Virus record (IMG/VR): IMGVR_UViG_3300044637_000057
Coordinates: 1 to 28,142 of that record
Reading direction: 5' to 3' (one strand)
Length of the DNA: 28,142 bases
Source of the DNA: a virus
Notes under the pieces: generated by a model
The model's database searches: none
Seen by the model: only the letters and a program-made list of their open reading frames with translations
Told to the model about the DNA's origin: nothing
In this document: one piece after another, positions 121 to 15,977 of the stretch
Position numbering within the stretch: the stretch's first letter is position 1
Layout of the letters: every line of letters begins with the position of its first letter
Made by a program: the position numbers and the translations under genes

Positions 121-158
121 TTTATTTTTATATTAATTAATTCTTAGGAGAATTTAAA

Positions 159-1085
159 ATGGCTTTAGGTACAGATAACGTTACAACAACAACCGCAGCA
201 ACGTTCATTCCAGAAATCTGGTCTGATGAAATTGTTGCTGCTTACAAGAAAAGCTTGGTCGCTGCCAACCTGATCAAGAAGATGAGCTTTAAGGGCAAGA
301 AAGGTGACACCGTTCACATTCCTGCACCTACCCGTGGTTCCGCTTCTGCTAAGGCTGCGTCTACCCAAGTGACTTTAATTGCAGCCACTGAAGGTGAGCG
401 TGTCATTAGCATCAACCAACACTGGGAATACTCGCGTCTGATCGAAGACATCGTGGAAGCCCAAGCATTGACTTCGCTGCGTCAGTTCTACACTGATGAC
501 GCTGGTTACGCTCTCGGCTTGAAAGTTGACAGCAGCATTATCCAGTTGGGTCGTGGTGTTAACGGTGGTAACATCGCTAACTCTGCTTACGCTGGTGCTT
601 TCTCTGGTGCTGACGGTACTACTGCTTACAACGCAAGTGCTAACACTGGTTCCGGTGCTTTGACTGATGCTGCTATTCGCCGCGCCATTCAGCGTTTGGA
701 CGACAACGACATTCCTATGGATGGCCGTTTCTTGATCGTTCCTCCTTCTAGCCGTAACACCTTGATGGGTATCGCTCGTTTCACTGAGCAAGCCTTCGTG
801 GGTGAGACAGGTGCTTCTAACACCATCCGTAACGGTGAAATTGGTAACGTGTACGGTATCCCCGTCTTCGTGTCCAACAACTCCGATACAACTTCTGGCA
901 CTACCGCTACTCGCGTGTGCTTGATGGCTCACAAAGACTTCGGTGTTCTGGTTGAGCAGATGGGTGTTCGCACTCAGACTCAGTACAAACAAGAGTGGTT
1001 AGCCAACTTGTTCACTGCTGACGTTCTGTACGGTGTTGCTGAGTTGCGTGACAACGCTGCTGTTGCTCTGACAGTTCCAGCTTAA
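159..1085 (+). CDS. major capsid protein
   Basis: This 308-aa protein is the probable major head protein. It starts MALGTDNVTTTTAATFIPEI, continues with a long amphipathic stretch (about residues 20-45, WSDEIVAAYKKSLVAANLIK), then the GDTVHIPAPTRGSA strand, and has many Gly/Ala/Asn-rich beta segments. This is the style of HK97-fold coat proteins of podoviruses. A strong Shine-Dalgarno (AGGAG) sits 8 bases before the ATG. Codons are markedly biased to C/T-ending forms (GGT, GCT, AAC, CGT) compared with neighbours, as expected for the most highly expressed virion gene. It lies between a scaffold-like gene end and a strong terminator, as in T7 gene 10. Family assignment rests on sequence style and synteny, since no unique catalytic motif exists for coat proteins. 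Confidence 0.85.
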   Translation: MALGTDNVTTTTAATFIPEIWSDEIVAAYKKSLVAANLIKKMSFKGKKGDTVHIPAPTRGSASAKAASTQVTLIAATEGERVISINQHWEYSRLIEDIVEAQALTSLRQFYTDDAGYALGLKVDSSIIQLGRGVNGGNIANSAYAGAFSGADGTTAYNASANTGSGALTDAAIRRAIQRLDDNDIPMDGRFLIVPPSSRNTLMGIARFTEQAFVGETGASNTIRNGEIGNVYGIPVFVSNNSDTTSGTTATRVCLMAHKDFGVLVEQMGVRTQTQYKQEWLANLFTADVLYGVAELRDNAAVALTVPA

Positions 1086-1106
1086 GCTTATAGCATAAGT
1101 TAAATC

Positions 1107-1138
1107 GGTTCCCCGCTCACAAGGTGGGGAGCCTTTTT
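1107..1138 (+). terminator. rho-independent terminator after the capsid gene
   Basis: An 8-bp stem (GGTTCCCC at 1107-1114 with GGGGAGCC at 1126-1133, one T-G wobble) closes an 11-base loop and is followed by five T residues. It stands 21 bases past the capsid stop codon, the same place as the T-phi terminator of T7. It probably lowers transcription of the downstream virion genes relative to the coat gene. Confidence 0.85.
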
Positions 1139-1187
1139 CATATGCTTTTAAAGTATTGTGTAAAGTATATAAGAAAGGTAATAAATT

Positions 1188-1379
1188 ATGGCTAAATTTA
1201 AGTGTAATCATTCGGGTAATATTGTTGAGTTTCTCTTGGAGCATGACATTAAGACAATGCGAGTACATCCTGAGTACACTGAGATTGTTGTTGAAGAAAC
1301 CCCTGTTAAAACTACTACTAAGAAGGTGAAACAAGATGAGACCAGTATCGGTAGGAACGACACTAACAACAACGACTAA
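1188..1379 (+). CDS. small conserved-type phage protein next to capsid
   Basis: A 63-aa protein starting MAKFKCNHSGNIVEF, followed by a segment with HPEYTEIVVEE and a Lys/Thr-rich, then Asn/Asp-rich, tail. An AAAGG motif lies about 8 bases before the ATG. Short proteins of this form (a KFKC..SGN..EF start followed by HPEY.E) are often found beside capsid genes of tailed phages; no function is established. The last 44 bases overlap the next gene in another frame, so its Thr/Asn/Asp-rich C-terminus is constrained by that gene. Confidence 0.7.
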   Translation: MAKFKCNHSGNIVEFLLEHDIKTMRVHPEYTEIVVEETPVKTTTKKVKQDETSIGRNDTNNND

Positions 1380-1668
1380 GACTACAGTTTACACGGTTCC
1401 CACAGGCTATTATGCTATGTGGAACCTTGCTTACGCTGTAAACCACTCAGGCAACAATAAACACGTTGACATTATTTGGTACGATGCCAGTGATAATCTT
1501 GAGCATTTTGTCATAGATAATTATGTCTTAACTCCTACTCAGTTTATTAAGTTTGATGGTGGTGCTTACATTGTGTTAGAAGAAGGTGATCAAGTTCGGG
1601 TTCAAATTGAATCAGGAGCTACAATGAATGTGATTAATACGTTTGAATTACATCGTAACAAAGGTTGA
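1336..1668 (+). CDS. small beta-rich virion-type protein
   Basis: A 110-aa protein with alternating hydrophobic and polar strands (YTVPTGYYAMWNLAYAVNHS, VDIIWYDASDN, GGAYIVLEEGDQVRVQIESG) and no signal peptide or membrane segment. It reads like a compact beta-sandwich, as in head decoration or head-fibre proteins, but I do not recognise a named family. AAGGTG lies 8 bases before the ATG. The start overlaps the preceding gene by 44 bases. Its place between capsid and fibre genes supports a virion role. Confidence 0.65.
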   Translation: MRPVSVGTTLTTTTKTTVYTVPTGYYAMWNLAYAVNHSGNNKHVDIIWYDASDNLEHFVIDNYVLTPTQFIKFDGGAYIVLEEGDQVRVQIESGATMNVINTFELHRNKG

Positions 1669-1673
1669 ATAAA

Positions 1674-3782
1674 ATGGAAGCATGGGATTACGACAAATAT
1701 GTCCAAGGTTTAAAATCTGGTAATGTAGACTTTAATCAAGAGTTTGCAAAGATGGGTGGCTTGGCTGCTCGTAGTACCCAAAACCTTTACCGTGAAATCT
1801 TAGCACAGCAAGCCGCAGGTTCTTCTGACTTCTGGTACGCAGGTAATACAGCCTCAAAAGAAGCAGCTGCTGCAGATTTTGCTTTACGTTTAGCTGAGAA
1901 TGGTATTGGTTCGTTAAGTCAGTTAGGTCAAATCACAATACCGGGAGGTGTTGATGGCGAAGGTGGGAGTATGCCTGATGAACAGGTTACAATTAATACA
2001 ACCACAGGTCAACCTATTCCTCGACCAGAACTTTTAGGTAGAGGTAACCGTGATTTAGATATTGATTATAATCTAATCTTTACCGCTAATGGGCAAGTTA
2101 TTCCCTACACGAGTAATCGTGAAAGTAGCTGGATGAGTTTTAGAGAGAATGCTCTTAAACCTGCTGCCTCTTTTGCCTTAGCATATTTTGGAGCACCTAT
2201 GATTGGTGCTGCTGTAGCTCCTGCTGCCACTGCTGCTACTCAGGCTGCTATTGGAGGAGCTATCGCAGGCGGTGGTTCTGCTGCTCTGACAGACGGTAAT
2301 GTTCTCCAAGGTGCTTTGTTAGGCGGTGCAGGTGGTTACTTACGAGGTGCTGCTTCTGTTCCTGCCAGTGACTCTATTTATTCATTAGCTACAGGTACGC
2401 CTAACCTAGACTACATGGGTGGCGGTCAAGGCTTGATGTCCACAGGTTCAGCTAATTTAGCTTCTATGGGTGGTGCTCAAGGATTGCAGATTCTCGCAGG
2501 TCTTCCTTCGACAACAGTAGCAGAAGCTTTAAATACTTTTGGAGGTGTAAATCCTTCAGTATTACCCGGAATGGGTGCTGGTACGGGTATTACACTTAAC
2601 ACACCTACAGGCTTAGTGACAGGTACAGGAACCATCAATCCCGGTAATGTTATCAGCGAGACAGGTATTAATACTGGTTTCAATACAACAGATTTTCTCA
2701 ATGCCAATGTTGGTGCAGGTCTTGGGACAACACTAGCAGATGTAAATACAGGTATCAATAGCGGTGCAACCACTGCTGGTACTTCTACAAGTGGTTTAAC
2801 CAATAGTCAGATAGCTAGTCTTTTAAACGCAGGTCTTGGTTTAGCTGGTTTAGGCGCTACTGCTGGTATAGGTAGTGGGGGTGCTTCAACTACTATGCAA
2901 AGTCCTACACAAGGATTAGCAGCTTATACTCCTGAATACTATCAGCAGTTACAGCAGTATTACAATTCTTATTTGCCTCAGACTCCTCGTGATGTAGTGA
3001 CTCCGTTGCAACAATGGTATAGTGGTGCATTTGGTCAAACACCCCCTACCTATGCTTCCATTGCAGCAAATACTGCTGTTAATGTACCAAACAATACAGG
3101 TTCTATTACTGATCCTGCATTAGTAGCTGCTATCAATGCACTTACCAACAGAACAGCAACTACAGCAACGACAGGAACTACAGCAAGACCAGTAACACCT
3201 ACTGCTGTTACTCCAGTAACACCTGTTACAACTACTGCTCCTCCTTCTGGTCTATTAAACAGTGCTCTTTTAAATGATTCTGTTTATCGTGACACAGCAC
3301 AAGCGGTGGCTGCAACAGGAACTCCTGCTCAAAAGGCTGAGTGGTACAACAGTATGCTGAGTAGCGGCTATGATGATGCGTCTGTTAAAGCTTTGGTAGA
3401 CAGTGCTGTAGGCCAACAGACAGCTTCTGATTGGGCTTATTTGCAACAGCTTGCTGCATCACAAACTGCTCAACCAGAAGTTTATCAGCCCCCTGTGTAT
3501 CAGCCTGAAGTCTACCAACCTCCTGCGGTTTCGGTTCAGCCTCCTATAAACCCTCCTCTTCCTGTTTCTTCTAATTTATCATTATTTAATGATGCTGTTT
3601 ATCGCGATACGGCACAAACAGTAGCCTCGACAGGTACACCTGCTCAGAAGGCTGAATGGTATAACAGCATGATTGGTAGTGGCTATAGTGATGCTGCTGT
3701 AAAAGCTTTAGTAGACAGTGCCGTAGGCCCTCAAAGTAGCTCCGATTGGGCTTACTTACAACAATTAGCAGCTTCTCGTTAA
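1674..3782 (+). CDS. large virion protein with duplicated C-terminal module
   Basis: A 702-aa protein of unrecognised family. The ATG at 1674 is chosen over an upstream TTG at 1665 because AAAGG at 1660-1664 is spaced 9 bases from it. Order of parts: a charged N-terminus (1-90), a hydrophobic Ala/Gly-rich stretch near residues 165-230 resembling glycine-zipper segments, a long Thr/Gly/Asn-rich region (230-420), a Tyr/Gln-rich part with QQLQQYYNSYLPQTP, a Thr/Pro linker, then two near-identical 66-residue modules (531-596 and 636-701) joined by a Pro-rich linker repeating PEVYQPPVYQ. The modules carry VYRDTAQ, TPAQKAEWYNSM and SDWAYLQQLAAS. It is probably part of the particle or its adsorption apparatus, from low complexity and position. 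Confidence 0.6.
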   Translation: MEAWDYDKYVQGLKSGNVDFNQEFAKMGGLAARSTQNLYREILAQQAAGSSDFWYAGNTASKEAAAADFALRLAENGIGSLSQLGQITIPGGVDGEGGSMPDEQVTINTTTGQPIPRPELLGRGNRDLDIDYNLIFTANGQVIPYTSNRESSWMSFRENALKPAASFALAYFGAPMIGAAVAPAATAATQAAIGGAIAGGGSAALTDGNVLQGALLGGAGGYLRGAASVPASDSIYSLATGTPNLDYMGGGQGLMSTGSANLASMGGAQGLQILAGLPSTTVAEALNTFGGVNPSVLPGMGAGTGITLNTPTGLVTGTGTINPGNVISETGINTGFNTTDFLNANVGAGLGTTLADVNTGINSGATTAGTSTSGLTNSQIASLLNAGLGLAGLGATAGIGSGGASTTMQSPTQGLAAYTPEYYQQLQQYYNSYLPQTPRDVVTPLQQWYSGAFGQTPPTYASIAANTAVNVPNNTGSITDPALVAAINALTNRTATTATTGTTARPVTPTAVTPVTPVTTTAPPSGLLNSALLNDSVYRDTAQAVAATGTPAQKAEWYNSMLSSGYDDASVKALVDSAVGQQTASDWAYLQQLAASQTAQPEVYQPPVYQPEVYQPPAVSVQPPINPPLPVSSNLSLFNDAVYRDTAQTVASTGTPAQKAEWYNSMIGSGYSDAAVKALVDSAVGPQSSSDWAYLQQLAASR
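3264..3776 (+). repeat. two in-frame copies of a 198-bp coding module
   Basis: Copy 1 is 3264-3461 and copy 2 is 3579-3776, each exactly 66 codons, separated by 117 bases encoding a Pro-rich linker. The proteins are nearly identical (TGTPAQKAEWYNSM is shared), while many third codon positions differ. This indicates an old duplication kept by selection on the protein. Confidence 0.9.
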
Positions 3783-3798
3783 TCTCTAAGGAATAAGA

Positions 3799-5376
3799 AT
3801 GTCCTCAACAATCATTACAAAGAATAGTAGCACAGCCTCTGCTGTACCTGCAGCAGGAGACTTAACTAAAGGTGAGTTGGCTGTCAACGTTACCGATAAG
3901 AAGTTATATACCAAAGATAATAGTGCTGCTATTGTCAAGATTGTAGGCTCCTTAGGTAACCAAGAAGCTAATGCTGTAGCCATCACTGGCGGTACAGTTG
4001 CTGGTGTTGCCCAAACAGGCGGTACAATCAATAACACACCTATTGGTGCTACTACTGCCTCCGCTGTAACAGGTACAGTTGTCACAGCTACTACAGGCTT
4101 TGTAGGTAACGTGACAGGCGCTGTGACAGGTAACGTCACTGGTAACGTCACAGGTAATGTGACAGGTAACGTCACAGGTAACTTGACAGGTAACGTAACA
4201 GCAACTAGCGGTTCATCTACATTCAACAACGTAACCATCAGTGGTTCGTTGGATATGGATGCAGGTACTTCTGCTACCATTACTGGTTTGCCTACTCCTG
4301 TTAATAACAGCGATGCAGCTAACAAGATTTATGTTGATACAGCTATCAGCAACTTAATTGATGGTGCTCCTGCTAACTTAGATACCCTGAATGAGATTGC
4401 TGCTGCTCTGAATGATGATGCTAACATTGCAGCAACATTAACAGCCTCTATTGCTACTAAAGTATCTAAAGCTGGTGATAGCATGACAGGTGCTTTGGCT
4501 ATGGGCACTAACAAGATCACAGGTCTGGGTACACCTACAGCAGGCACTGATGCTGCTACTAAAACTTATGTTGATACAGCGGATGCCTTAAAGCTTAGCT
4601 TGACAGGTGGCACTATGTCTGGTGCTATCGCTATGGGGAGCAATAAGATCACAGGCTTAGGTACTCCTACTGTTGATGCTGACGCAACTACAAAACTATA
4701 TGTCGATGGTATCTTAGGTTCTGCCACTTCTGCTGCGACTTCGGCATCGGCTGCTGCTACCAGTGCTACCAACGCAGCAAACTCAGCAACTGCAGCCTCT
4801 ACAAGTGCTTCTTCCGCTTCTGCTAGTGCTACCTCTGCTGCTGCTTCTTTGGACAGCTTTGATGATCGTTACTTAGGCTCTAAAACTACTGATCCTACTG
4901 TTGATAATGACGGTAACGCACTGCTTACAGGTGCTTTGTATTGGAACAGTACAAACTCACGAATGGAAGTTTATACAGGAACAGCTTGGTTAGAATTCTA
5001 TCCTGCTACTAATCCTGTTGAACAATCTGATATTGGCACAGCACCTAATGAAGTTCCTTTGAACCAATACTTAGGTAAGTTAGCTTATGAGGATGTGTTA
5101 GGTTTATTTGCAACATTAAACCCTGCACCTACGATTGCATCTGCTGCAACCATTCAGCCTTTAACACCTATTACTTTTGTTTCGGGTATTACAACAATCA
5201 ACACAATCACAGTTCCCGCTGAGTTTGTTGGTGGTGGTCAGATTACTTTGATTCCAACAGGGATATTTTTAACTGGAACATCTGGAAACATTGCAGTTGC
5301 AACAACTTCAGTGGTTAGCAGGGCATTAATAATGACTTATGACGCAGCCACTGCCAAGTGGTATCCCTCTTACTAA
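3799..5376 (+). CDS. tail fibre protein, repeat-rich
   Basis: A 525-aa fibre. The N-terminus (1-50) has the GDLTKGELAVNVTDKKLYTKD motif common to phage fibre attachment domains. Next come a GNVT tetrapeptide repeat (103-134), three KITGLGTPT...YVD type units ending near 180, 260 and 303, an Ala/Ser/Thr-rich segment (307-350) suited to a trimeric coiled coil, a DDRYLGSKTTDPTVD segment with GALYWNSTNSRMEVYTGTAWL, and a unique C-terminal domain (about 400-525) that probably faces the host. AAGGA lies 7 bases before the ATG. It is followed after 9 bases by the spike gene. The family call rests on these recurrent fibre motifs; receptor specificity cannot be read. Confidence 0.85.
   Translation: MSSTIITKNSSTASAVPAAGDLTKGELAVNVTDKKLYTKDNSAAIVKIVGSLGNQEANAVAITGGTVAGVAQTGGTINNTPIGATTASAVTGTVVTATTGFVGNVTGAVTGNVTGNVTGNVTGNVTGNLTGNVTATSGSSTFNNVTISGSLDMDAGTSATITGLPTPVNNSDAANKIYVDTAISNLIDGAPANLDTLNEIAAALNDDANIAATLTASIATKVSKAGDSMTGALAMGTNKITGLGTPTAGTDAATKTYVDTADALKLSLTGGTMSGAIAMGSNKITGLGTPTVDADATTKLYVDGILGSATSAATSASAAATSATNAANSATAASTSASSASASATSAAASLDSFDDRYLGSKTTDPTVDNDGNALLTGALYWNSTNSRMEVYTGTAWLEFYPATNPVEQSDIGTAPNEVPLNQYLGKLAYEDVLGLFATLNPAPTIASAATIQPLTPITFVSGITTINTITVPAEFVGGGQITLIPTGIFLTGTSGNIAVATTSVVSRALIMTYDAATAKWYPSY
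4105..4200 (+). repeat. 12-bp tandem repeat encoding GNVT units
   Basis: Eight consecutive 12-base units close to GGTAACGTCACA encode GNVT or variants (GAVT, GNLT). Units ending GTGACA and GTCACA alternate, so adjacent units form short inverted repeats. The unit is a multiple of three, so copy-number change would keep the reading frame. Confidence 0.9.
4477..4707 (+). repeat. duplicated KITGLGTPT/YVD fibre unit
   Basis: Two units of about 100 bases (near 4477-4578 and 4606-4707) encode MTGALAMGTNKITGLGTPT...YVD and MSGAIAMGSNKITGLGTPT...YVD. A more diverged third unit (ITGLPTPV...IYVD) ends near 4338. Such units are typical of repetitive shaft segments in tail fibres. Confidence 0.8.
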
Positions 5377-5385
5377 GGAATCAAT

Positions 5386-7215
5386 ATGGCTATTCAATCT
5401 AATTTCCCTGCAATCAAGCCAACACTGCTGCTTGACTTCGCCAACACCAAGCAACTTGATCCAAGAATCGCCTTCACCCGAGCCAGCACTGCTACCTACT
5501 ACGGCACTCAAACGGCTAAGGCCGAGGAGAATTTGGTTTTGCAGTCGCAGGACTTCACAACTACTTGGACAACAGCAAGCCAGAACGCAACTGTTACGGC
5601 GAACACGACTGCCGCCCCTGATGGCACGACCACCGCCGACACCCTAACCGATAACGCAACTAGCGGTGTTCACCGTGTCGCTCAGACAATCACAACCAGC
5701 AACAACAATCAGTTAGTCCTAAGTTGCTTTCTGAAGTACAGCACAATGCAATGGGTTTCGCTGTCTGCCGCAACCAATACGGGGCAATGGGCTGGCGCTA
5801 AGTTTGATGTTCAGAATGGAGTGCTTGGTAGCACCAGCCAGCAAGGAACTGATTGGACTGCCAACTCATCTTCAATTACCTCAGTCGGCAACGGTTGGTA
5901 TCGCTGCGTTCTTGTGCTCACTCCGGGTAACTCTGGGTCGCTTGGTGTATATGTTAACGGCGCAGCTGATGGCACTACGTTTACAACAAGTCAGCGAGGA
6001 GCAGAGGTTTACACGGGTGCAAGCAGTTCAGTGTTTGTCTGGGGCGCTCAACTAGAGCAACGCTCCGCAGTCACAGCCTACACACCCACAACCACTACAC
6101 CGATCACCAACTACATCCCTCAACTTCTGACTGCTGCAAGTGGTGTGGCACGGTTTGACCACAACCCAACTACGTTTGAGAGCTTGGGGCTGGAGATTGA
6201 AGAGCAGCGAACGAACTTGCTGACTTACTCTGAGCAGTTTAATAATGCGGCTTGGACAAAAACAAACTCAACAATTACAGCAAACACAATTATTGCACCT
6301 GACGGAACACTTACTGGCGATAAGCACGTACCAAACAATGGAGCAACCCTTGGCACTGGAGCAAGTTCTACCAGAGTGTTTCAATCCCCTACTTTGGTTT
6401 CTGGCACAGTTTATACGCTGACGTTTTACGCAAAGGCAGCGGAGTACGACCAATTTCAAATGTCAGTTATTACTACGCCTACTTTGTCGGCTGCTTTTTC
6501 ATTGACAGCAGGCACAGTTTTGTCTGGAACTGGAGCAACAATTACTGCGGTTGGCAACGGCTGGTACAGATGCAGTTTACCTTTTACTTCCGACATTACA
6601 GGTTCTTTGCAAATTAGGTGGTCAGGCAATTCAAGCACCACATCAACAGGCGATGGCTACAGCGGCATCTACATCTGGGGCGCTCAACTGGAAGCCGGAG
6701 CATTTGCCACCAGCTACATCCAAACAGTGGCCTCACAGGTCACACGTTCGGCTGACGCTGCAAGCATGACGGGAACGAACTTCAGCAGTTGGTATAACCA
6801 AGCGGAGGGGACTGTTTATTCCGAGGCAAGCACATTTGATGCTTCTGTAGTTCGTTCAGCATTTTCTGCCAGCGATGGGACAACAACATTTAGAGTTTTG
6901 ACCGCACATGGCACAGGCGCAAGGGGGTTTGTTGCCAATAACGGCACACAGATGTCTCAGACTATTGCTTCTGTTGCGTTTTCCAATAATACGTTTTCCA
7001 AAATGTCTGTGGCTTATGCTGTTAACAACGGCAACGCTGCTGCAAACGGTACGCTTGGCACACTTGATACAACCATGACAATTCCAGTAGTTACACAACT
7101 GCAAATTGGCTTACAGACGGGTAGCGCAACTCAAACTTTAAATGGCACAATTAAAAAGATAGCCTACTACCCCCTGCGTGTCACCGATGCTCAGTTGCAA
7201 GCCCTCACAAGTTAA
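5386..7215 (+). CDS. receptor-binding spike with two carbohydrate-binding-like modules
   Basis: A 609-aa protein with a short N-terminal segment holding LLLDFANTKQLDPRIAFTRA (1-35), usual in phage head-spike/tail-spike proteins. Two related jelly-roll-like modules follow: residues 49-224 and 277-436. Each begins with an NL..S..F....W pattern, contains GNGWYRC, and ends WGAQLE. The C-terminal part (about 460-609) resembles a LamG/concanavalin-type lectin domain (WYNQAEGTVYSEAS early, IKKIAYYPLRVTDAQLQALT at the end). Such proteins bind cell-surface glycans. AAGGA precedes the ATG. Base composition is richer in G+C and C-ending codons than neighbouring genes, suggesting module exchange. No catalytic residues for glycan cleavage are recognisable. 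Confidence 0.8.
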   Translation: MAIQSNFPAIKPTLLLDFANTKQLDPRIAFTRASTATYYGTQTAKAEENLVLQSQDFTTTWTTASQNATVTANTTAAPDGTTTADTLTDNATSGVHRVAQTITTSNNNQLVLSCFLKYSTMQWVSLSAATNTGQWAGAKFDVQNGVLGSTSQQGTDWTANSSSITSVGNGWYRCVLVLTPGNSGSLGVYVNGAADGTTFTTSQRGAEVYTGASSSVFVWGAQLEQRSAVTAYTPTTTTPITNYIPQLLTAASGVARFDHNPTTFESLGLEIEEQRTNLLTYSEQFNNAAWTKTNSTITANTIIAPDGTLTGDKHVPNNGATLGTGASSTRVFQSPTLVSGTVYTLTFYAKAAEYDQFQMSVITTPTLSAAFSLTAGTVLSGTGATITAVGNGWYRCSLPFTSDITGSLQIRWSGNSSTTSTGDGYSGIYIWGAQLEAGAFATSYIQTVASQVTRSADAASMTGTNFSSWYNQAEGTVYSEASTFDASVVRSAFSASDGTTTFRVLTAHGTGARGFVANNGTQMSQTIASVAFSNNTFSKMSVAYAVNNGNAAANGTLGTLDTTMTIPVVTQLQIGLQTGSATQTLNGTIKKIAYYPLRVTDAQLQALTS

Positions 7216-7224
7216 GGACACATC

Positions 7225-7452
7225 ATGGACTATTACCTCGCCTTTCCTGACCAAGCTGCTGCTGATGCAGTGTTATACGGTGCAGAAGATAAACCTAACT
7301 ATGCCAACATTGACATTATCGGAACCATCTACAAAGATGAACAAGCTATCTCTGGATGGCACATTAATGTACGTTTAGTAGATGGAGAAGACTCTAGTGC
7401 TTTGACATCATTTGAAGTAACACCCACGACACCTGTTCGTGTCTGGGCCTAA
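7225..7452 (+). CDS. small phage protein downstream of tail spike
   Basis: A 75-aa acidic protein ([20 protein letters not shown] ... [13 protein letters not shown]...) with AAGGA 6 bases before its ATG. Proteins with this MDYYL.FPDE.....VL start and GWHVNVR core occur after tail fibre genes of proteobacterial phages and are usually left as hypothetical. A minor virion or fibre-assembly role is possible from position only. Confidence 0.65.
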
Positions 7453-7462
7453 GGAGAATATT

Positions 7463-7651
7463 ATGCCTCTCAAAAAAGGTAAATCAGATAAGACTGTCAG
7501 CGAGAACATCTCCATGATGGTCAAAGAAGGTAAACCACAGAAACAAGCTGTTGCGATTGCTTTGTCAGAAGCAGGACGCTCCGCTGGTAGAGCTAAGCCT
7601 GAGCGTGGTAGCCGTACTAAGAAGAATAAAGATAAGAAGAAAAGTAAATAA
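7463..7651 (+). CDS. small basic DUF6496-like protein
   Basis: The ATG at 7463 is preferred over a GTG at 7439 because AAGGAG lies 7 bases before it. The 62-aa product begins [20 protein letters not shown], contains [18 protein letters not shown], and ends in a Lys/Arg-rich tail. This matches the short DUF6496-type proteins found widely in phages and bacteria, for which no function is known. The basic tail could contact nucleic acid; that is inference. Its end lies 3 bases from a strong promoter. Confidence 0.75.
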
Positions 7652-7654
7652 TAG

Positions 7655-7683
7655 TTGACAAACAGCTAAAAATCTGGTATACT
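7655..7683 (+). promoter_or_regulatory. strong sigma70 promoter with extended -10
   Basis: TTGACA at 7655-7660 and TATACT at 7678-7683 are separated by exactly 17 bases, and a TG at 7675-7676 gives an extended -10. Five of six -10 bases and all -35 bases match consensus. A transcript would start near 7690, about 20 bases before the tail adaptor gene. It is the best promoter I can find in the window. Confidence 0.85.
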
Positions 7684-7710
7684 ATTATCTATATTTAAAG
7701 GAACATAAGG

Positions 7711-8364
7711 ATGGCTTCGACCTATTTACAACTGGTTAACAACGTACTCACAAGGTTGCGGGAAACTGAGGTATCTTCAGTTGAAGACACTCCTTATAGC
7801 TCCTTAATCGGTGTGTTCGTTAATGACGCTAAACGAGAAGTAGAGGATGCACATGAGTGGAATGCTTTAGCAACCACCATTGTAGTCCCTACTGTCGTTG
7901 GTCAGCGTAACTACACACTGGCAGGTTCAGGTGAGCGATTTAAGACAGAGGATGTAATTAATGATACTGAGAACGTGGGTATGCGTCAAGCTCCACAGAC
8001 TTGGCTTAATCGTCAATACTTCATTGCTACTGTCCAAGATGGTGCTCCATATTACTACAGCTATAACGGTTTTACAGCCGGAGGTGATGCTAAAGTAGAC
8101 CTCTGGCCTCAGCCTGATTCTGTATATCAACTTCGCTTTGAGTTAGTTGTCCCTCAACTGGACTTGGTTAACAACAGCGATAACTTAATTGTCCCTGCTC
8201 ACTTGGTACAGATGCTGGCATATGCTAAGGCTGTTGGTGAGCGTGGTGAAGATGGTGGATCAGCCTTTGGTGAAATCTATCAGCAGTATCGCTTAGCTCT
8301 GGCTGATGCTATTGCTATTGAACGTAACCGATACGAAGATCAGGTTGTCTGGACAGGTGTTTAA
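7711..8364 (+). CDS. tail tubular protein A-like adaptor
   Basis: A 217-aa protein, close to the size of T7 gp11 (196 aa). It starts with a helical segment YLQLVNNVLTRLRETEV, followed by VFVNDAKREVEDAHEWNALA and a beta-rich centre, and ends in helices that include AYAKAVGERGEDGG and FGEIYQQYRLALADAIAIER. This helix-rich N- and C-terminal pattern is typical of the gatekeeper/adaptor ring between portal and nozzle in podoviruses. AAAGGA precedes the ATG. It is followed 2 bases later by the nozzle gene, the usual pair. Confidence 0.75.
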   Translation: MASTYLQLVNNVLTRLRETEVSSVEDTPYSSLIGVFVNDAKREVEDAHEWNALATTIVVPTVVGQRNYTLAGSGERFKTEDVINDTENVGMRQAPQTWLNRQYFIATVQDGAPYYYSYNGFTAGGDAKVDLWPQPDSVYQLRFELVVPQLDLVNNSDNLIVPAHLVQMLAYAKAVGERGEDGGSAFGEIYQQYRLALADAIAIERNRYEDQVVWTGV

Positions 8365-8366
8365 TC

Positions 8367-9905
8367 ATGGTAGCTAAACTCCTAACGACAACCATTGCTG
8401 CTCCCGGCTTTAAAGGAGTCAACACTCAAGACTCTTCCGTTACGTTAGAGGATGGGTTTGCTACTGTAGCTAATAACTGTGTCATTGATAAGTTTGGTCG
8501 TATTGGTGCTCGTAAGGGTTGGATACCTTCTCACACTGCTAACGGAACATTAGGTACAGGATTAGTCAAAGCTATTGATGAGTTGATTACTGTAGCTGGT
8601 GTATCTTACATTGTTGCTGCGGGTAACAATAAGTTATTTAAACTGGCAGGCTCTACTCTGACTGAGCTGACCTATGGCGGTGGTGGTACAGCCCCTACGA
8701 TCACAGATAGTAACTGGCAGATGGCTGCATTGAACAGTTGCTTGTATATGTATCAGGCTGGACATGATCCATTAGTATTTGATCCTGCTGTAAGTACTAC
8801 TACTTATAGACGTATCTCTGAGAAGTCAGGCTACGTAGGTACAGTGTCTAATAACAACTGTGTGATCAGTGCCTATGGTCGTACATGGAGTGCTAATAAC
8901 AGTACCAATAAGAGCACTGTACAATTCTCAGACTTACTCTCAGGACACATTCTGAGCACAGGTACTGCGGGTACATTGGATGTCTCTCAGGTATGGCCTG
9001 CTGGTGGTGATGAGATTGTAGCCTTAGCTGCTCACAACAACTTCCTGATTGTCTTTGGTCGTAGACAGATTCTGATCTATAACAATGCTAACAATCCTAA
9101 TGAACTATCATTGTCTGATGCTATTACAGGTACTGGATGCTTCGCTAGGGATTCAGTAGTAGTTACAGGTGGTGATGTCTTATTCTTGTCTGATGCTGGT
9201 GTTAAATCACTGATGCGTACCATTCAAGAGAAGTCTGCACCTATGCGTGACATCAGTGCTAACGTCCGTGATGACTTAGTGTTTGAGATTACCTTAGAAG
9301 ACCCTGATGAGATTAAGGCTGTGTATTCCGATAAGGATGCCTTCTATCTGTTATCTCTTCCAGCACGTCAGTTATCCTACTGTTTTGATATGAGGGGAAC
9401 TCTTCAGAACGGTGCTAATAGGACTACAACATGGGATGGCTTAGTACCCACAGCAATGAAGTATCTCCGCAGTAAAGACTTATTGGTAGGTAGACCTAGT
9501 TACATCGGTAAGTATGATGGCTATAAGGACAACACTGATAGTTACTTGATGCGTTACTACACTAACTACTTTGACTTCCAAGCTCCTACAGTTATAAAGC
9601 TGATGAAGAAGGTAGGAGTTACAGTTATTGGTGGTGGTGGCTACGGTGTTACCTTGAAGTTCGGATTCGATTATTCAGACATTCTTAATAGCCGACAGTT
9701 CTCACTTGCTAATACTGCTGTAGCTGAGTACAACATTGCTGAATATGACATTGGTGAATACGGTGGTAATGCCTTCGACAACAAAGTTATTAATATTGGT
9801 GGCTCAGGTAAGGTTATTCAATTAGGTTTTGAAACCATTGTGTTTGAGAAACCTGTATCCATTCAGAAGCTAGACGTTTACGTTAAAACAGGAAAGACTC
9901 GCTAA
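8367..9905 (+). CDS. tail nozzle / stabilisation protein (tail tubular protein B-like)
   Basis: A 512-aa beta-rich protein. The N-terminus has APGFKGVNTQDSSVTLEDGF followed by ATVANNCVIDKFGRIGARKG, the opening of nozzle-type proteins that form the distal tail tube (P22 gp10-like and T7 gp12-like roles). The middle holds repeated propeller-like strands (YMYQAGHDPLVFDP, NNFLIVFGRRQILIYNNAN, VVVTGGDVLFLSDAGVKSL). It is separated by 2 bases from the adaptor gene and by one base from the next gene. A weak AGG lies upstream of the start. Shorter than T7 gp12 (794 aa) but near the P22 gp10 length. Confidence 0.75.
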   Translation: MVAKLLTTTIAAPGFKGVNTQDSSVTLEDGFATVANNCVIDKFGRIGARKGWIPSHTANGTLGTGLVKAIDELITVAGVSYIVAAGNNKLFKLAGSTLTELTYGGGGTAPTITDSNWQMAALNSCLYMYQAGHDPLVFDPAVSTTTYRRISEKSGYVGTVSNNNCVISAYGRTWSANNSTNKSTVQFSDLLSGHILSTGTAGTLDVSQVWPAGGDEIVALAAHNNFLIVFGRRQILIYNNANNPNELSLSDAITGTGCFARDSVVVTGGDVLFLSDAGVKSLMRTIQEKSAPMRDISANVRDDLVFEITLEDPDEIKAVYSDKDAFYLLSLPARQLSYCFDMRGTLQNGANRTTTWDGLVPTAMKYLRSKDLLVGRPSYIGKYDGYKDNTDSYLMRYYTNYFDFQAPTVIKLMKKVGVTVIGGGGYGVTLKFGFDYSDILNSRQFSLANTAVAEYNIAEYDIGEYGGNAFDNKVINIGGSGKVIQLGFETIVFEKPVSIQKLDVYVKTGKTR

Positions 9906-9906
9906 C

Positions 9907-10137
9907 ATGGCTAACTATACAAAATCAACTAACTTTGCTGTCAAGGATGGATTACCAACAGGTAATGCTAACAAGATTATCAAAGGTACTGAGATTGATA
10001 CTGAGTATAACAACATTGCTTCAGCTATTAGTTCTAAGAGCAATGCTAATAACGGTGCTTTTACAGGCACTACAACTATGGTTAACTTGACTGTATCAGG
10101 TACTTTTGATGCTACAGTGGATGGAGGTACATACTAA
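9907..10137 (+). CDS. stand-alone fibre N-terminal-like protein
   Basis: A 76-aa protein starting MANYTKSTNFAVKDGLPTGN, then GTEIDTEYNNIASAISSKSN, and ending with one beta repeat VNLTVSGTFDATVDGGTY. In many phages this sequence is the N-terminal, tail-attached part of a longer fibre; here it stops after one shaft-like unit. Its stop codon overlaps the next start (TAATG). It may be a connector or a remnant of a fibre. Confidence 0.65.
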   Translation: MANYTKSTNFAVKDGLPTGNANKIIKGTEIDTEYNNIASAISSKSNANNGAFTGTTTMVNLTVSGTFDATVDGGTY

Positions 10138-11072
10138 TGGCTTTCGATTGGACTTCTTTAATTGGCCCTGCTATTGGGGCTTTAGGCACAGGTTATGCTG
10201 CTAACCAAGCTGCAGGTAATGCTACAGCATCGGCTAACCAAGCTGCTCAGATGGCTCAGTTCCGTCCTGTAGGTGTTACTACTCGCTTTGGTCGATCAGG
10301 CTTTAACTATGGCCCTCAAGGTGAGTTGACAGGTGCTGGCTATCAAGTAGCTCCTGACATTGCTGCGATGCGTGAAGGCTTGATTGGCATGGCTGGTACA
10401 GGCCTGTCACAAGCTCAAATGGCTCAGGCACAGCAACCGGGAATTACCACAGCAGGTCAGGGCCTGTTTAACCTCGGTCAGCAGTATGTTGGTGCTTCGC
10501 CTCAGGCTGTAGCTGCTAACTACATGACTCAGCAGCAAGGTTTGTTAGCTCCCGGTCGTGAACAGCAGTTAGCTCAGTTGACTAACCAACAGCAGCAACA
10601 AGGTCGATTAGGTCTTGCTACTGGTGCTACATCAGCAGGTTATAGCATGGGTGCTCCCGGCTTACAAGCTGCTAACCCTCAAATGGCTGCTTACTACAAT
10701 GCCTTGGCTATGCAGGATGCTCAGTTGGCTGCTCAGGCTAATCAAGCAGGACAACAGCAAGTTACATTCGGTCAGGGTTTGATGACAGGTGGTATTAACC
10801 TTCAAAATGCTGGCTACGGTCTGCAGTCTAATGCTCTTGCTCCATACACTAACTTAATTGGTGGTGCTCAAAACGTAGAGAACTTAGGTATGAATGCTTT
10901 GACAGCAGGTCAAGGGTTAGGCTCTGCAGCAGCAGGCGGTAACCAAGCAGCAGCTAACCAGTATATGCAAGGTCAGACTATTGCTAACCAAGCTAACCGT
11001 GCTGCCTTACAAGGTGCTGTAGCAGGTCTGACTGATCCTATCGCTGCTTTGATTGCAGGTTTGACTCGTTAA
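10137..11072 (+). CDS. probable internal virion (DNA ejection) protein
   Basis: A 311-aa Ala/Gln/Gly-rich protein. The N-terminus is hydrophobic and glycine-rich (SLIGPAIGALGTGYAANQAA), the middle has Gln-rich runs, and the end contains LTDPIAALIAGLTR. GGAGG lies 9 bases before the ATG, within the end of the preceding gene. It is the first of three consecutive low-complexity, helix-prone proteins between the nozzle and lysis genes, the place of T7 internal core proteins. No enzymatic motif is visible. Confidence 0.6.
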   Translation: MAFDWTSLIGPAIGALGTGYAANQAAGNATASANQAAQMAQFRPVGVTTRFGRSGFNYGPQGELTGAGYQVAPDIAAMREGLIGMAGTGLSQAQMAQAQQPGITTAGQGLFNLGQQYVGASPQAVAANYMTQQQGLLAPGREQQLAQLTNQQQQQGRLGLATGATSAGYSMGAPGLQAANPQMAAYYNALAMQDAQLAAQANQAGQQQVTFGQGLMTGGINLQNAGYGLQSNALAPYTNLIGGAQNVENLGMNALTAGQGLGSAAAGGNQAAANQYMQGQTIANQANRAALQGAVAGLTDPIAALIAGLTR

Positions 11073-11084
11073 TAAGGAATAACA

Positions 11085-12266
11085 ATGGCAACATCACCTA
11101 GTTTATTTGGAGGCTCTATGTCTCCTCAAGAGATGCAGGCTCAGTTGTTAAACCAACGTGCTGCTCAGTTTGCTCAAATGAATCCTAATGAACAGTTAGG
11201 CATGATGGCTTATAAAGCTGGTTCAGGAGTGGGTACAGGATTGGCAAATGCATTCGGTGTAAACGTACAAGACCCTACTATTCAACGGGCTACAAGGCTC
11301 CGTGAGTTAGCAGGTCAGTATAACACTAACACTGCTGCAGGCCTGCGTCAAATGGCTGATGCTTTACGCACACAAGACCCTGACATGGCATTGCAGTTGT
11401 CTCAACGTGCTGCTGCTATGGACTTGGAAGCTGCTAAACTTAGTTCTGAACAAGCTCTTGCTTCTCAGCGTGGTCGTGAAAAAGAATCTGCTGATCCTTT
11501 CCAGAAGCTTGTACAGTCAGGTAAATATACTCCTGAAAGTTTAGCTGCATACCGAACTTCACAGAACCCTGCTGACTTAGTATTGGCTACTAAAGAATCT
11601 AAGACTAGCTATGGTGCTGAAGCTGATCGTGCTGCCAAAGCTAACTTCAATAAAGACTTTGCTGATTTAACACAAACAGAAGCTAAAGTTATTGACGATT
11701 TGTTAGAAGCCCGTGGCATCAAGAAAGCTAAAGCAGGTAAGACAGACGTTGTTCTTCCGGGTGTTAAGACAGCAGGTGATGTGACAGGTCTTCGTAGAGA
11801 CATTCAAGCTATTACCAAGCCTTATCAAGAGCAAGCTGATGCTGCTGAGTCTGCTATTGATGCGGCTAACATGGCTATTAAGAGTAACAACTTTGCTGCT
11901 GTGTCTAGCCTGTCTCGTAGCCTTGCTAAAGCATCAGGTGAAACACAGTTATCTGCCCGAGATGTAGAATCATTTGGTATTGATCCTTCCTTAGTTGGTC
12001 GTGTATCAGATACGGTTTCTCGCTTGGCTCAAGGTAGACCAACAGTTGATACTCTTACTAAATTGCGTCAACTTGCAGAAGCTCTTAAGAAGAAAGCTGA
12101 TGCTCGTATCAAACTTGAAGAAGATCAAACTATTGAAGTTGCTCGTGCAAGTGGACAGTTTACTGAAGACCAACTTAAATTATTTCGCCGTAGGCCTGCA
12201 CAGGCTAAGGGCGGTAACACTAAAACTACCCGTAGTGGGGTTACATATACAGTGGAGAATGATTAA
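11085..12266 (+). CDS. probable internal virion protein, helical
   Basis: A 393-aa protein with long helix-forming, charged Ala/Gln-rich segments (SPQEMQAQLLNQRAAQFAQM near the N-terminus; LTKLRQLAEALKKKADARIK near residue 330). AAGGA lies 8 bases before the ATG, and the stop overlaps the next start as TAATG. Order and character fit the second internal core/ejection protein of T7-like particles. I see no conserved catalytic residues. Confidence 0.6.
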   Translation: MATSPSLFGGSMSPQEMQAQLLNQRAAQFAQMNPNEQLGMMAYKAGSGVGTGLANAFGVNVQDPTIQRATRLRELAGQYNTNTAAGLRQMADALRTQDPDMALQLSQRAAAMDLEAAKLSSEQALASQRGREKESADPFQKLVQSGKYTPESLAAYRTSQNPADLVLATKESKTSYGAEADRAAKANFNKDFADLTQTEAKVIDDLLEARGIKKAKAGKTDVVLPGVKTAGDVTGLRRDIQAITKPYQEQADAAESAIDAANMAIKSNNFAAVSSLSRSLAKASGETQLSARDVESFGIDPSLVGRVSDTVSRLAQGRPTVDTLTKLRQLAEALKKKADARIKLEEDQTIEVARASGQFTEDQLKLFRRRPAQAKGGNTKTTRSGVTYTVEND

Positions 12267-14842
12267 TGCCAACGTACACCATCAATGGAAAGAAAGTTCG
12301 AACAGATCGAGAATTGACAGAAGCAGAGATTGATGAAATTGCTGCTGACATAGGTGGTGCTACTCAACGTCCTACGACAGGGCCTGCAGCTATCCCTACA
12401 GGCGGTGATCCTACAATCCCAATGACACAAGCTCCTCCTAATGCCCGTGAGCGTATGACAGCTAATGCCCTTGCGGGTCTTGCTGCTGTTCCTGCTCTGG
12501 CGATCCCTGCACGAGGTGTACAGCTTGCTACTACAGGTACTCGTGCTGCTCCCTACGGACAAGCTGCTGCTAATATCTTTATCCCTAAAACAGGTACTGA
12601 CTTAGCTAGACAAGCAGCTATCAGTGCTGGTAGTACTGTTATTGCAGGTGAAGCGGGTCAAGCAGTGGCTCAAAAGGCAGGTGAACAGTATCGCTTACCT
12701 GCTGAAATGGTTTCTGGTGTAGCTCTTGCGTTGCCTGCTAATGCGTTAATGACATCAGGTGAATTGGCTGTTAAAGGTCTGTTTAATAGAGCAACAGGTA
12801 AAGAGTTCTTTGACGCAGGTTCACAAGCTGCTGCAACCTTCGGTGGTGCTCGTGCTGAGACTCGTTTGCGTACTGCTATGCAGTCTAACCCTGACTTAGC
12901 TGCTGATCTTGCACGTGCTGCTGAGATTGAACAGTTAACAGGTGTGAAGTTACCTGTCACTGCTGCTGCTAAAGGTGATACTACCTTAACAGGTCTGTTG
13001 GCTTCTCAGACATCACGAGGTGAGAATGCAGCCTTTACTGCTGCTATTAAGCAACAAGAGAAGGATGCTTTAGAAGCTGTTCGTGCTGCTCAGAAACAGT
13101 TAGCAGGTGATCCTCGTAATGCGGCCTTGACTGCTGAGGTTGAAGCTAAGAAGCTGGCCTATGAGAACTCACGTAGACAGACTGCTTTTGATATGAAGCA
13201 GGCTAACATTGAGCGTCAAGTAGGTACTATTGATACACGTATCCAAGACCTTACTTCTGATTCGTTAATGACAACAGCAGGTAAGGAAGATGTAGGTAAT
13301 CGTGTTACTAGCTTACTGAATGCTCGTGAAGCTGTAATTAGACAAGAATTTAAACCACTGTATGATGATGTCTTGACCAATGCTTCTAAAGCTGGTGTTG
13401 AGATGGATTCTCCTGTAGTGGCTAACCTGTGGAACTTTGTTAAGACTCGTCAAGCTGAGGATGTCTTTAATAAGTTCCCTGCTTTGGATGCAGCAATTAA
13501 ACGTGTCTTAGCTCCTACTAAAGCTCCTGTTAGCAGTAAGTTTGCAGAGAAGTATCCTAACTTAGTTCGCTCAGTTGAAGGTACATTCAAGCCTCTTAAA
13601 GTTACTGATATTGATTCTCTGAAGCGCGGTATTAACCGTGCTATTGGTGATACTCAAGACAAAGATCAGTTACGGATGTTGTATGAGTTGAAGAACAGGT
13701 TTGATGAATCTTTGAACACACTGCCTGAAGACTTTGTACAAGCTTACAAAGGTTTGGATAAACAGTATGCTGACAAGTTAGGTATTCCTTTCAACGAAGC
13801 AGGTGTACTGTCTGTTGATCGTGCTAGGTTCGTAGAATCTACAGTACCTCTCCTGACTAGTAAGCCTTCAGCTATTCGACAGATTCTAGCAGCTACTGAC
13901 AATTCTCCTGAGGCTGCAAAGATCATTGAAGATGCTTTCTTGATGAAGATTAGTCAGACTAACGGTATTGTTAATCCTAATACAATGTCTGTCAACCCTG
14001 CTGCTTTGCAATCATTCTTGCGTAAGAACACAGAAGCTATTGATCAAGTTCCCGGATTACGTCAACGATTAGAGGGTTTGTCTAATAATGTTACAGGCTT
14101 ATTGTCTGAGCGTCAACGACTGTTAGACTTACAGAAGAATGCTGCTGTGGGTAAGATTGAGAATGTATGGTCTCGTGCTTATGGTCAACAAGGTGGCTTT
14201 GAAGGCTTTGTAAGCAGAGCCTTAGGTAACCCTGAAGAACTTAAGCAACTCATGGTAGCTGCAGGTTCTGATGCTACCTTGCAACGTGGCTTGAAGGCTG
14301 TGGTGATGGACTTAGGCTTGAAGTCTTCTAACAAGATGGGCTTCTTTGATGACAATGCTCAGTCTATCAATGCTTTGTTTGGTAAGGATCATGCACAAAA
14401 CGTAAAGGCTCTGTTAGAAGCTTCTGAACGATTGGCTCGTAACCCTGTTATGGCTAAGATCAATCAGTCACTGACTCAGACAACACAGTTTGAACAGTTA
14501 ACAGGTTCTGATCCTGCTCGTGCAGCTTCTCTGATTCGTCAGCAAGTTCAAAGTACATTCTATAAGGTATCTACCTTAATGAGTCGCTTCTTACAGAACA
14601 AGTCTGTTAAGGCTGAGAACACTGAGATTCAGGAGTTCCTGAGTAATCCTAAGAACGTCAAGGATATGTCCGAAGCTATCAGAGCTATGGAAGAGGGTGG
14701 CGAGAAGGGCTTCCAGAAGGCTAAAGCCATAGCGGGTAAGTTATTAGGTAACGCCTCTATTGCAGCTTTGATTGGGGCTACAGCACCTGCACGTATTATT
14801 GAGAGAGAAGAAACAATACCTTTAGATATGGAGCAGGAGTAA
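12266..14842 (+). CDS. large internal virion protein (DNA ejection)
   Basis: An 858-aa protein, the largest in the window. It starts with a short segment MPTYTINGKKVRTDRELTEA, then a Pro/Thr-rich linker, an Ala-rich hydrophobic stretch (about residues 60-185) and long charged helical parts through the C-terminus (LTSDSLMTTAGKEDVGNRVT, GLSNNVTGLLSERQRLLDLQ). GGAG lies 8 bases before the ATG. Large helical proteins just before lysis genes are usually the ejection proteins of podoviruses (T7 gp15/gp16 position). The lytic transglycosylase motif of T7 gp16 is not visible, so peptidoglycan cleavage is not supported. Confidence 0.65.
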   Translation: MPTYTINGKKVRTDRELTEAEIDEIAADIGGATQRPTTGPAAIPTGGDPTIPMTQAPPNARERMTANALAGLAAVPALAIPARGVQLATTGTRAAPYGQAAANIFIPKTGTDLARQAAISAGSTVIAGEAGQAVAQKAGEQYRLPAEMVSGVALALPANALMTSGELAVKGLFNRATGKEFFDAGSQAAATFGGARAETRLRTAMQSNPDLAADLARAAEIEQLTGVKLPVTAAAKGDTTLTGLLASQTSRGENAAFTAAIKQQEKDALEAVRAAQKQLAGDPRNAALTAEVEAKKLAYENSRRQTAFDMKQANIERQVGTIDTRIQDLTSDSLMTTAGKEDVGNRVTSLLNAREAVIRQEFKPLYDDVLTNASKAGVEMDSPVVANLWNFVKTRQAEDVFNKFPALDAAIKRVLAPTKAPVSSKFAEKYPNLVRSVEGTFKPLKVTDIDSLKRGINRAIGDTQDKDQLRMLYELKNRFDESLNTLPEDFVQAYKGLDKQYADKLGIPFNEAGVLSVDRARFVESTVPLLTSKPSAIRQILAATDNSPEAAKIIEDAFLMKISQTNGIVNPNTMSVNPAALQSFLRKNTEAIDQVPGLRQRLEGLSNNVTGLLSERQRLLDLQKNAAVGKIENVWSRAYGQQGGFEGFVSRALGNPEELKQLMVAAGSDATLQRGLKAVVMDLGLKSSNKMGFFDDNAQSINALFGKDHAQNVKALLEASERLARNPVMAKINQSLTQTTQFEQLTGSDPARAASLIRQQVQSTFYKVSTLMSRFLQNKSVKAENTEIQEFLSNPKNVKDMSEAIRAMEEGGEKGFQKAKAIAGKLLGNASIAALIGATAPARIIEREETIPLDMEQE

Positions 14843-14844
14843 CA

Positions 14845-15048
14845 ATGCCGGACTTGACACAAACTACAACTGAGACAGCAACGGGAATGGCAGCTAAGGC
14901 TTCTGCTCCTATCACTGTCTCTCTAGCAACCGTAGCAGGCTATCAAGTATCTGAGTTATTACTTTGGTGTACCTTACTTTATACTGTGTTAATGATTGCT
15001 CATAAACTGTACAGTATCTACAAAGATGTAACTGAACGTAAGCCATGA
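14845..15048 (+). CDS. holin
   Basis: A 67-aa protein with a polar N-terminus, a weakly hydrophobic stretch (about 22-35, PITVSLATVAGYQV), a strong membrane segment (about 37-58, SELLLWCTLLYTVLMIAHKLYS) and a charged tail KDVTERKP. Size, topology and place directly before the endolysin support a holin. AGGAG lies 6 bases before the ATG. Its stop overlaps the endolysin start as ATGA, so the two are probably translationally coupled. Confidence 0.75.
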   Translation: MPDLTQTTTETATGMAAKASAPITVSLATVAGYQVSELLLWCTLLYTVLMIAHKLYSIYKDVTERKP

Positions 15049-15503
15049 TACGCCCTGCCATTACTTCACTATACCTATCAGCAGCCGTGTTAGTAGGGAT
15101 AGCTATCGAGGAAGGATTTACTTCCAAGGCAGTTATCCCTGTTCCCGGTGATGTGCCTACCATAGGCTTTGGTACGACTAAGGGAGTTAAGAGAGGTGAT
15201 GTTATTACTCCTGAGAGAGCACTGGTAAGACTTTTAGACGATGCCAGTACTTTCTCAGAGGGTGTTAAAAGATGTGCTAATGTGCCTCTGTTCCAGTATG
15301 AGTTTGATGCCTATGTGTCACTCTCCTACAACATTGGTACAGGAGCTTTCTGTAACTCTACCCTTGTTAAGAAGCTTAAGACTTATGACTATGAAGGAGC
15401 TTGTAAAGAGATTCTTAAATGGGATAAGTTTCAAGGTCAGTCTCTCAAAGGTTTAACACACAGGAGACAGAGGGAATATAAACTCTGTATAGGTAATGTA
15501 TAA
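15045..15503 (+). CDS. SAR endolysin, GH24 lysozyme
   Basis: A 152-aa lysozyme that cleaves peptidoglycan. Residues 8-21 (SLYLSAAVLVGIAI) form a weakly hydrophobic N-terminal segment typical of signal-arrest-release endolysins, which are exported by Sec and then released from the membrane. The catalytic Glu is in EEGF (E23), followed by VPGDVPTIGFGTT (34-45), the conserved GH24 core. The usual Asp of the E..D..T triad is displaced: Pro lies at the aligned site and Asp36 follows Gly35, a variant found in Burkholderiales phage lysozymes. The C-terminus holds FDAYVSLSYNIGTGAFCNST and GLTHRRQREYKLC. It overlaps the holin and i-spanin genes. Confidence 0.9.
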   Translation: MIRPAITSLYLSAAVLVGIAIEEGFTSKAVIPVPGDVPTIGFGTTKGVKRGDVITPERALVRLLDDASTFSEGVKRCANVPLFQYEFDAYVSLSYNIGTGAFCNSTLVKKLKTYDYEGACKEILKWDKFQGQSLKGLTHRRQREYKLCIGNV

Positions 15504-15933
15504 GATCATCGCTGTCATTGTGATTTGGTTATGTTCTATAACTATTACAGGGTGGTTGTCGTATGGAGCAGGAGTAGACAAAGAAGCTACAAAGTTCATC
15601 AAGTACAGACAACAGCAACAAACCTTAGTTTTAGAACAACAAGAACAACACAAGGTTAAACTCACTGAACAACTCAAGGACAAAGAAGATGCTATCAAGA
15701 GTATTAATAAGCGTCATGCTACTATCGTTAGTGGGTTGCGCCAGCGTACAGAGAGACCCGTTACCGACCCTACCGTTAAAGAAGTTAGTAGTGCCCCTGT
15801 CTGCACAGGAACAGGAAGCACTGGAGAACAACTTTACCGACAGGATGCAGAGTTTCTTATCGGGGAAGCTGCCAAAGCAGACATCCTCAGAGAAGCCTTA
15901 AAGACTTGTCGTACACAGTTATTAGAGCAGTAA
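15496..15933 (+). CDS. Rz: i-spanin (Rz-like)
   Basis: A 145-aa protein with one N-terminal membrane anchor (about 3-25, KIIAVIVIWLCSITITGWLS), then a Gln/Lys/Glu-rich coiled-coil periplasmic part (30-75) and two Cys (C102, C139) in a C-terminal domain. This is the inner-membrane spanin that joins an outer-membrane lipoprotein to disrupt the outer membrane. It starts inside the lysozyme gene end (8-base overlap) and contains the whole o-spanin gene in another frame. A strong terminator follows 7 bases after its stop. Confidence 0.85.
   Translation: MYKIIAVIVIWLCSITITGWLSYGAGVDKEATKFIKYRQQQQTLVLEQQEQHKVKLTEQLKDKEDAIKSINKRHATIVSGLRQRTERPVTDPTVKEVSSAPVCTGTGSTGEQLYRQDAEFLIGEAAKADILREALKTCRTQLLEQ
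15689..15901 (+). CDS. Rz1: o-spanin (Rz1-like lipoprotein), embedded
   Basis: A 70-aa protein fully nested in the +1 frame of the Rz-like gene. Residues 1-17 are a lipoprotein signal: MLSRVLISVMLLSLVGC, with lipobox LVGC and Cys17 as the lipidated residue. The mature part is short, with a proline stretch (DPLPTLPL) and polar C-terminus, as in Rz1. AAGGA lies about 9 bases before the ATG. The embedded arrangement matches that of phage lambda. Confidence 0.85.
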   Translation: MLSRVLISVMLLSLVGCASVQRDPLPTLPLKKLVVPLSAQEQEALENNFTDRMQSFLSGKLPKQTSSEKP

Positions 15934-15940
15934 ACAAAGA

Positions 15941-15977
15941 AGGCCCGTTAGAGTTCATCGCTCTAACGGGCCTTTTT
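15941..15977 (+). terminator. perfect hairpin terminator between converging operons
   Basis: A 13-bp perfect stem (15941-15953 with 15961-15973) closes a 7-base loop and runs into a T tract (15972-15976) on the plus strand. It ends the late block 7 bases after the Rz stop. On the minus strand the hairpin is followed by TTCTTTG, a weaker U-run, so it may also stop leftward transcription, though less well. Confidence 0.9.

Follow-up and report, generated by a model that had tools for sequence, protein, structure and literature searches.

A putative host sigma70-type promoter ahead of the tail genes in a group of uncultured phages without a T7-type RNA polymerase

Introduction

Which polymerase reads the tail genes of a T7-like phage that carries a strong host-type promoter sequence directly in front of them? 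This question is raised by positions 7655-7683 of the virus record IMGVR_UViG_3300044637_000057. The window analyzed here is the whole linear record of 28142 bases, which is probably a fragment of a larger genome.

In the late region of T7, a promoter is followed by capsid gene 10, the terminator Tphi, and further late promoters. The group of phages to which the window belongs resembles T7 in having a hairpin right behind the capsid gene and then another promoter downstream. It differs in that its candidate promoters are of the host sigma70 type, whereas those of T7 are phage-polymerase promoters, and in that the fibre genes separate its terminator-like hairpin from the tail genes.

Results

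The site and its surroundings

The late genes of the window lie on the + strand, from the capsid protein gene (159-1085) through the lysis genes, and end at 15933. The replication genes lie on the - strand and converge with the late arm at a bidirectional hairpin (Table 1). The terminase and portal genes are beyond the window. The gene directly behind the site had been called a tail adaptor from the letters alone, and this assignment was borne out: its product matched PHROG 10775 (tail protein) and, by profile, tail tubular protein A (9k09_d, E 2e-6). The large proteins encoded at 10137-14842 are probable internal virion proteins, judged by position alone. At the end of the replication arm, a gene for a ClpP-like protease (15977-16627, - strand) is found near a PhoH-like gene, outside the capsid module.

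Table 1. Features of the late arm around the putative promoter (positions of the window).
Feature	Position	Strand	Remark
Terminator-like hairpin GGTTCCCCGCTCACAAGGTGGGGAGCC, then TTTTT	1107..1133	+	in the 102-bp gap after the capsid gene
Fibre and accessory cassette	1188..7651	+	tail fibre families; between capsid hairpin and promoter
-35 hexamer TTGACA	7655..7660	+	TTGACA in 87/92 relatives, TTGACT in 5/92
Spacer, 17 nt, ending TGG	7661-7677	+	TG at 7675-7676
Extended -10 element TGG	7675..7677	+	TG in 87/92 relatives
-10 hexamer TATACT	7678..7683	+	positions 1, 2 and 6 (T, A, T) the same in all 35 distinct cores
Leader, predicted transcript start ~7690	7684..7710	+	start position inferred from sequence
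AAAGGA, ribosome-binding-like	7697-7702	+	in leader before tail tubular protein A
Tail tubular protein A (head-to-tail adaptor)	7711..8364	+	first gene behind the promoter
Remaining downstream late unit	8367..15933	+	tail/stabilisation protein, probable internal virion proteins, lysis genes
Endolysin	15045-15503	+	within the lysis genes
Bidirectional terminator-like hairpin	15937..15977	.	predicted on both strands, between late (+) and replication (-) arms

The sequence-only reading had given the site as TTGACA, a 17-base spacer with TG, and TATACT, and the letters at 7655-7683 are exactly these. Compared with the E. coli consensus of a sigma70 extended -10 promoter, assumed to hold for the host (for which a search through genome contigs gave no match), the site showed 11/12 matches together with the 17-nt spacer and TGG, and it was the best among 26 promoter-like sites in positions 1-20000. 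A single further site in the window reaches 11/12, TTGACA-16-TATAGT at 25239-25266 (+). It has no TG, runs antisense within the DNA polymerase gene and could be a chance match. When the pattern was searched with up to two mismatches, 7655-7683 was found at 0 mismatches and one other site at 1; shuffles gave on average 0.34 sites with up to two mismatches each. The total of promoter-like sites in the window was not above that in shuffles; the match alone therefore proves little, though so good a match is rare.

The gap holding the site had been described as unusual for the late block, and it is: it measures 59 bp (7652-7710), while all other late junctions range from -44 to +16 bp, except the 102-bp gap behind the capsid gene. 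All 16 records compared, the window among them, have a hairpin with a T tail behind the capsid gene, and its stem sequence differs between them.

Conservation at the junction

Conservation of the two hexamers in related genomes, by which the sequence-only reading had wanted the site to be judged, was clearly seen when relatives were retrieved using the genes behind the promoter as queries. All 92 distinct relatives (tail protein 67-99% identical) retained the -35, the -10, and a spacer of exactly 17, although they represent 43 distinct cores and kinship makes 92/92 overstate the number of independent retentions. The shared form was TTGAC[A/T]-17 bp-TANNNT, placed 15-30 nt upstream of the start codon. 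T at -17, T at -15, and G at -14 were nearly invariant, giving TNTG, which is close to the TRTG motif, and a run of AAA occurred at spacer positions 9-11 in the relatives.

TG was absent in five relatives, three of which have one common core sequence. The -10 hexamer of these five was TATAAT (4) or TAAAAT (1), while TATAAT occurred only once among the 87 relatives with TG. The -10 hexamer had on average 5.8 matches without TG versus 4.5 with it. Such a trade-off between TG and a better -10 hexamer is what should be expected of a sigma70 site.

The median score at the junction was 13.5, compared with 8-10 in front of 22 further genes of these records, and only 0.3% of random 80-mers reached a score of 13. 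Two values, a maximum of 15 for fib among the junction scores and a distance of 10042 for L125, were likely contig-edge artefacts and were ignored.

The gene in front of the promoter varied: it encoded a small basic protein in 71/88 relatives and fell into at most 9 further clusters in the rest, although a few of these clusters may reflect misassigned reading frames. The spacer sequence also differed between relatives. Because the upstream gene varies and the site stays constant, the site is linked to the downstream gene and not to the upstream one. In the window, the small basic protein (phrog_2423, 7463-7651) adjoins the promoter. Its homologue in the relative G003 stands behind the lysis gene, so this small protein moves within the late region.

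It is this conservation that makes the site more than a chance match, and 7655-7683 is very probably a real sigma70-type promoter.

Other strong sites in the related phages

In each of five near-complete relatives, the late strand carried exactly three strong sites, preceding terminase, scaffold/capsid, and tail tubular protein A, while the early strands of the same five had 0, 0, 2, 0, and 0; their shuffles gave 0-1 strong sites per strand. The promoter-like site at 7655-7683 is thus not a lone oddity but one of three strong late-strand sites in the group. The site before the terminase small subunit was present in G003, G001, G002, G005, G006, and others. The capsid site lay about 1.4 kb upstream of the capsid gene, behind the portal gene. 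L002, a relative that shares 99% tail-protein identity with the window, has this site as well, so the window's own genome probably has a capsid promoter too, just past the edge of the fragment. In the G008 clade the capsid site was missing and a gene insertion was found there; in L146, a collagen-like gene (4381-6327) is inserted between the portal gene and the next gene.

The sequence-only reading had proposed that the tail, ejection and lysis genes are uncoupled from the capsid part. This was sustained in that the promoter stands behind the capsid hairpin, but in near-complete relatives a separate host-type promoter precedes the capsid part.

On the early strand, a weaker conserved site with TG was found upstream of primase. 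One relative, G007, had two strong sigma70-like sites on that strand (L145, 7301-7329 and 12531-12558, - strand), so the strand bias is not universal. The window itself has TTGACA-17-TGC-TATCCT at 24557-24585 (- strand), inside a small early gene (24478-24747); the site is identical in the relative G019, and conservation as a promoter and conservation of coding are indistinguishable for it.

Search for a phage polymerase

Neither the window nor any of 23 related records, several of them with a full gene set, matched T7-type RNA polymerase (PF00940), while the same search detected T7 with E 1e-109. The sequence-only remark that no phage polymerase is visible thus held for the T7 type in the window and in the related records searched. 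The single-subunit RNA polymerase that marks Autographiviridae was accordingly not found. Repeated ends were seen in 4/23 related records, with an exact overlap in G005 and overlaps that were not letter-perfect in G001, G002, and G006; such records carry terminase, portal, capsid, tail, lysis, reductase, and replication genes.

The larger unassigned proteins of one relative with a full gene set gave no polymerase in PHROGs, and N4-type and multi-subunit polymerases were covered indirectly, by PHROG matches in one relative. In a search for repeated phage-type promoters, no exact 15-mer occurred at least three times in the window, G005, or G006, though a degenerate motif would escape such a search.

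Early proteins and symmetry of the spacer

No DNA-binding family was recognised among the early proteins with PHROGs, and most of the early proteins tested matched no family of known function. In the spacer, perfect inverted repeats with arms of at least 5 were found in 12/43 distinct cores, compared with 4.5 +/- 2.0 after shuffling columns, and 2/500 column shuffles reached the observed count. Positions 5 and 14 of the spacer were complementary at a frequency of 0.51 versus 0.29 expected, while a fixed-centre symmetry test gave 0.39 versus 0.33; relatedness inflates the inverted-repeat tests. A repressor operator in the spacer was rejected as an explanation: inverted repeats are in excess, but their centre is not fixed and kinship inflates the count.

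Relation to named phages

No near DNA relative of window positions 5000-15000 was found among named phages, and the closest tail proteins of named phages were only about 23-26% identical among the matches listed. The window has podophage capsid and T7-like tail families and tail tubular protein A, and it lacks PF00940, as is typical of the SIO1/VpV262 type; by its layout, the window may plausibly belong to the SIO1/VpV262 group (Zobellviridae). SIO1 lacks an RNA polymerase, and the cobaviruses have two arms, a bidirectional terminator, a cobalamin-dependent reductase, and ThyX (PMC6775973); the word promoter is absent from that paper. The likeness of the window group to SIO1, VpV262, and the cobaviruses lies in being T7-related podophages, for the cobaviruses in the two-arm plan with a bidirectional terminator, and for SIO1 in the absence of a T7-type polymerase.

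In the distant Roseobacter phage CRP-1 group, a tail tubular protein A homologue of about 23% identity directly follows the capsid gene, and the gap between the two holds a hairpin. In 51 distinct members this junction had no promoter, with best scores of 7-10. The fibre gene of CRP-1 stands behind the tail genes, unlike in the window group.

Discussion

We infer the activity, the start site, the transcript extent, and the timing of 7655-7683 from sequence. Our main reading, to which we give a probability of roughly 0.84, is that a host sigma70-type extended -10 promoter lies here, which would restart late transcription behind the capsid hairpin and the fibre cassette, in a group without a T7-type polymerase. 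Host RNA polymerase (sigma70 holoenzyme) would start near 7690, and the transcript would run in the direction of the bidirectional terminator-like hairpin at 15937-15977, covering the genes for tail tubular protein A and for the other tail, ejection, and lysis proteins. A restart at 7690 would make the core tail genes independent of read-through past the capsid-unit hairpin and the variable fibre cassette. The tail, DNA-ejection, and lysis proteins of this phage and its relatives are very probably made by host machinery. The proposal of the sequence-only reading that host polymerase drives these genes thus stands as far as the conserved sigma70-type site and the absence of a T7-type polymerase go, while the transcript start and its reach stay predictions.

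The same arrangement could be read in other ways. The site might express tail tubular protein A only early or at a low constitutive level, with the late genes served mainly by read-through from the terminase and capsid promoters. The capsid hairpin may leak, and the relatives do have two strong promoters upstream, but a strong extended -10 site kept precisely here, with a hairpin upstream in all records examined, is unlikely to have a negligible role, and we regard this alternative as unlikely. That the match arose by chance, or that the sequence is kept for RNA structure or coding, would agree with a total of promoter-like sites no higher than in shuffles, but it is extremely improbable in view of the fixed spacing in 92/92 relatives and the absence of such a site at other junctions and at the 51 junctions of the CRP-1 group.

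Two further alternatives concern control. The promoter may carry an operator, a dyad in the spacer (L004 CAGATTaaAATCTG, L053 ACACTaaAGTGT) on which a repressor, either of the host or an early one of the phage, would sit until late in infection. The 12/43 cores with a perfect inverted repeat and the complementarity of positions 5 and 14, both above expectation, speak for it. The symmetry centre, however, shifts between clades, many relatives have no symmetry at all and that of the window is imperfect; together with the fixed-centre result, the inflation by relatedness, and the lack of a recognised DNA-binding family, this makes the operator quite unlikely. It is improbable that a phage sigma-like or RNAP-binding factor redirects host polymerase to sites that merely resemble sigma70 promoters: sigma70 needs no helper to recognise a full consensus with TG, and no sigma-like family was found, even though the small early proteins mostly match no known family and T5 has an RNAP-binding protein despite its sigma70-like late promoters (PMC7472727).

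For the preferred reading of a host-read restart promoter, the delay of late expression could possibly come from the order of DNA entry. We put forward only tentatively the wider model, that a T7-like late layout is run wholly by host polymerase and that, with three strong sigma70 promoters on the late strand and mostly weaker ones on the early strand, its timing would be set by DNA entry order or by a small early factor at the spacer and not by the class of promoter.

Late promoters of the host type are known in kind, and the present one is a well-supported further case; what is unusual is how the strong sites gather on the late strand. In phage tf (LUZ24/PaP3/tf, Pseudomonas podophages), convergent arms meet at a bidirectional terminator and sigma70 promoters are found in both halves, seven of ten predicted promoters in the early half and three in the late half (PMC3517423). 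The window group shares the convergent two-arm plan, the bidirectional terminator and the late-half sigma70 promoters with LUZ24 and tf. The early half of tf is promoter-rich, whereas the near-complete relatives of the window have 3 late and 0-2 early strong sites, a comparison across differing scoring methods. No LUZ24-like record was among the matches listed for capsid, primase, and tail proteins.

In T5, early and late genes alike are preceded by strong sigma70 promoters, and the switch is left unexplained (PMC7472727). The likeness to the window group is that strong sigma70 promoters precede late genes with timing unexplained; the difference is that T5 is unrelated and long-tailed, transfers its DNA in two steps, and has a known RNAP-binding protein (PMC7472727). 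The question already posed for T5 is made concrete here: how does a phage delay strong sigma70 late promoters that host polymerase could read at once? A widespread group of uncultured phages now gains a testable transcription map with three conserved host-type late promoters, a capsid hairpin, and no T7-type polymerase.

Comparison with the CRP-1 group suggests that the fibre cassette came between the hairpin and the tail genes, and that the promoter would secure expression behind the cassette. The fibre-region genes of the window contain a 191-nt repeat (3270-3460 and 3585-3775, 77% identical) and a 12-nt tandem repeat (4105-4200), which suggests that these are changeable parts of the fibre.
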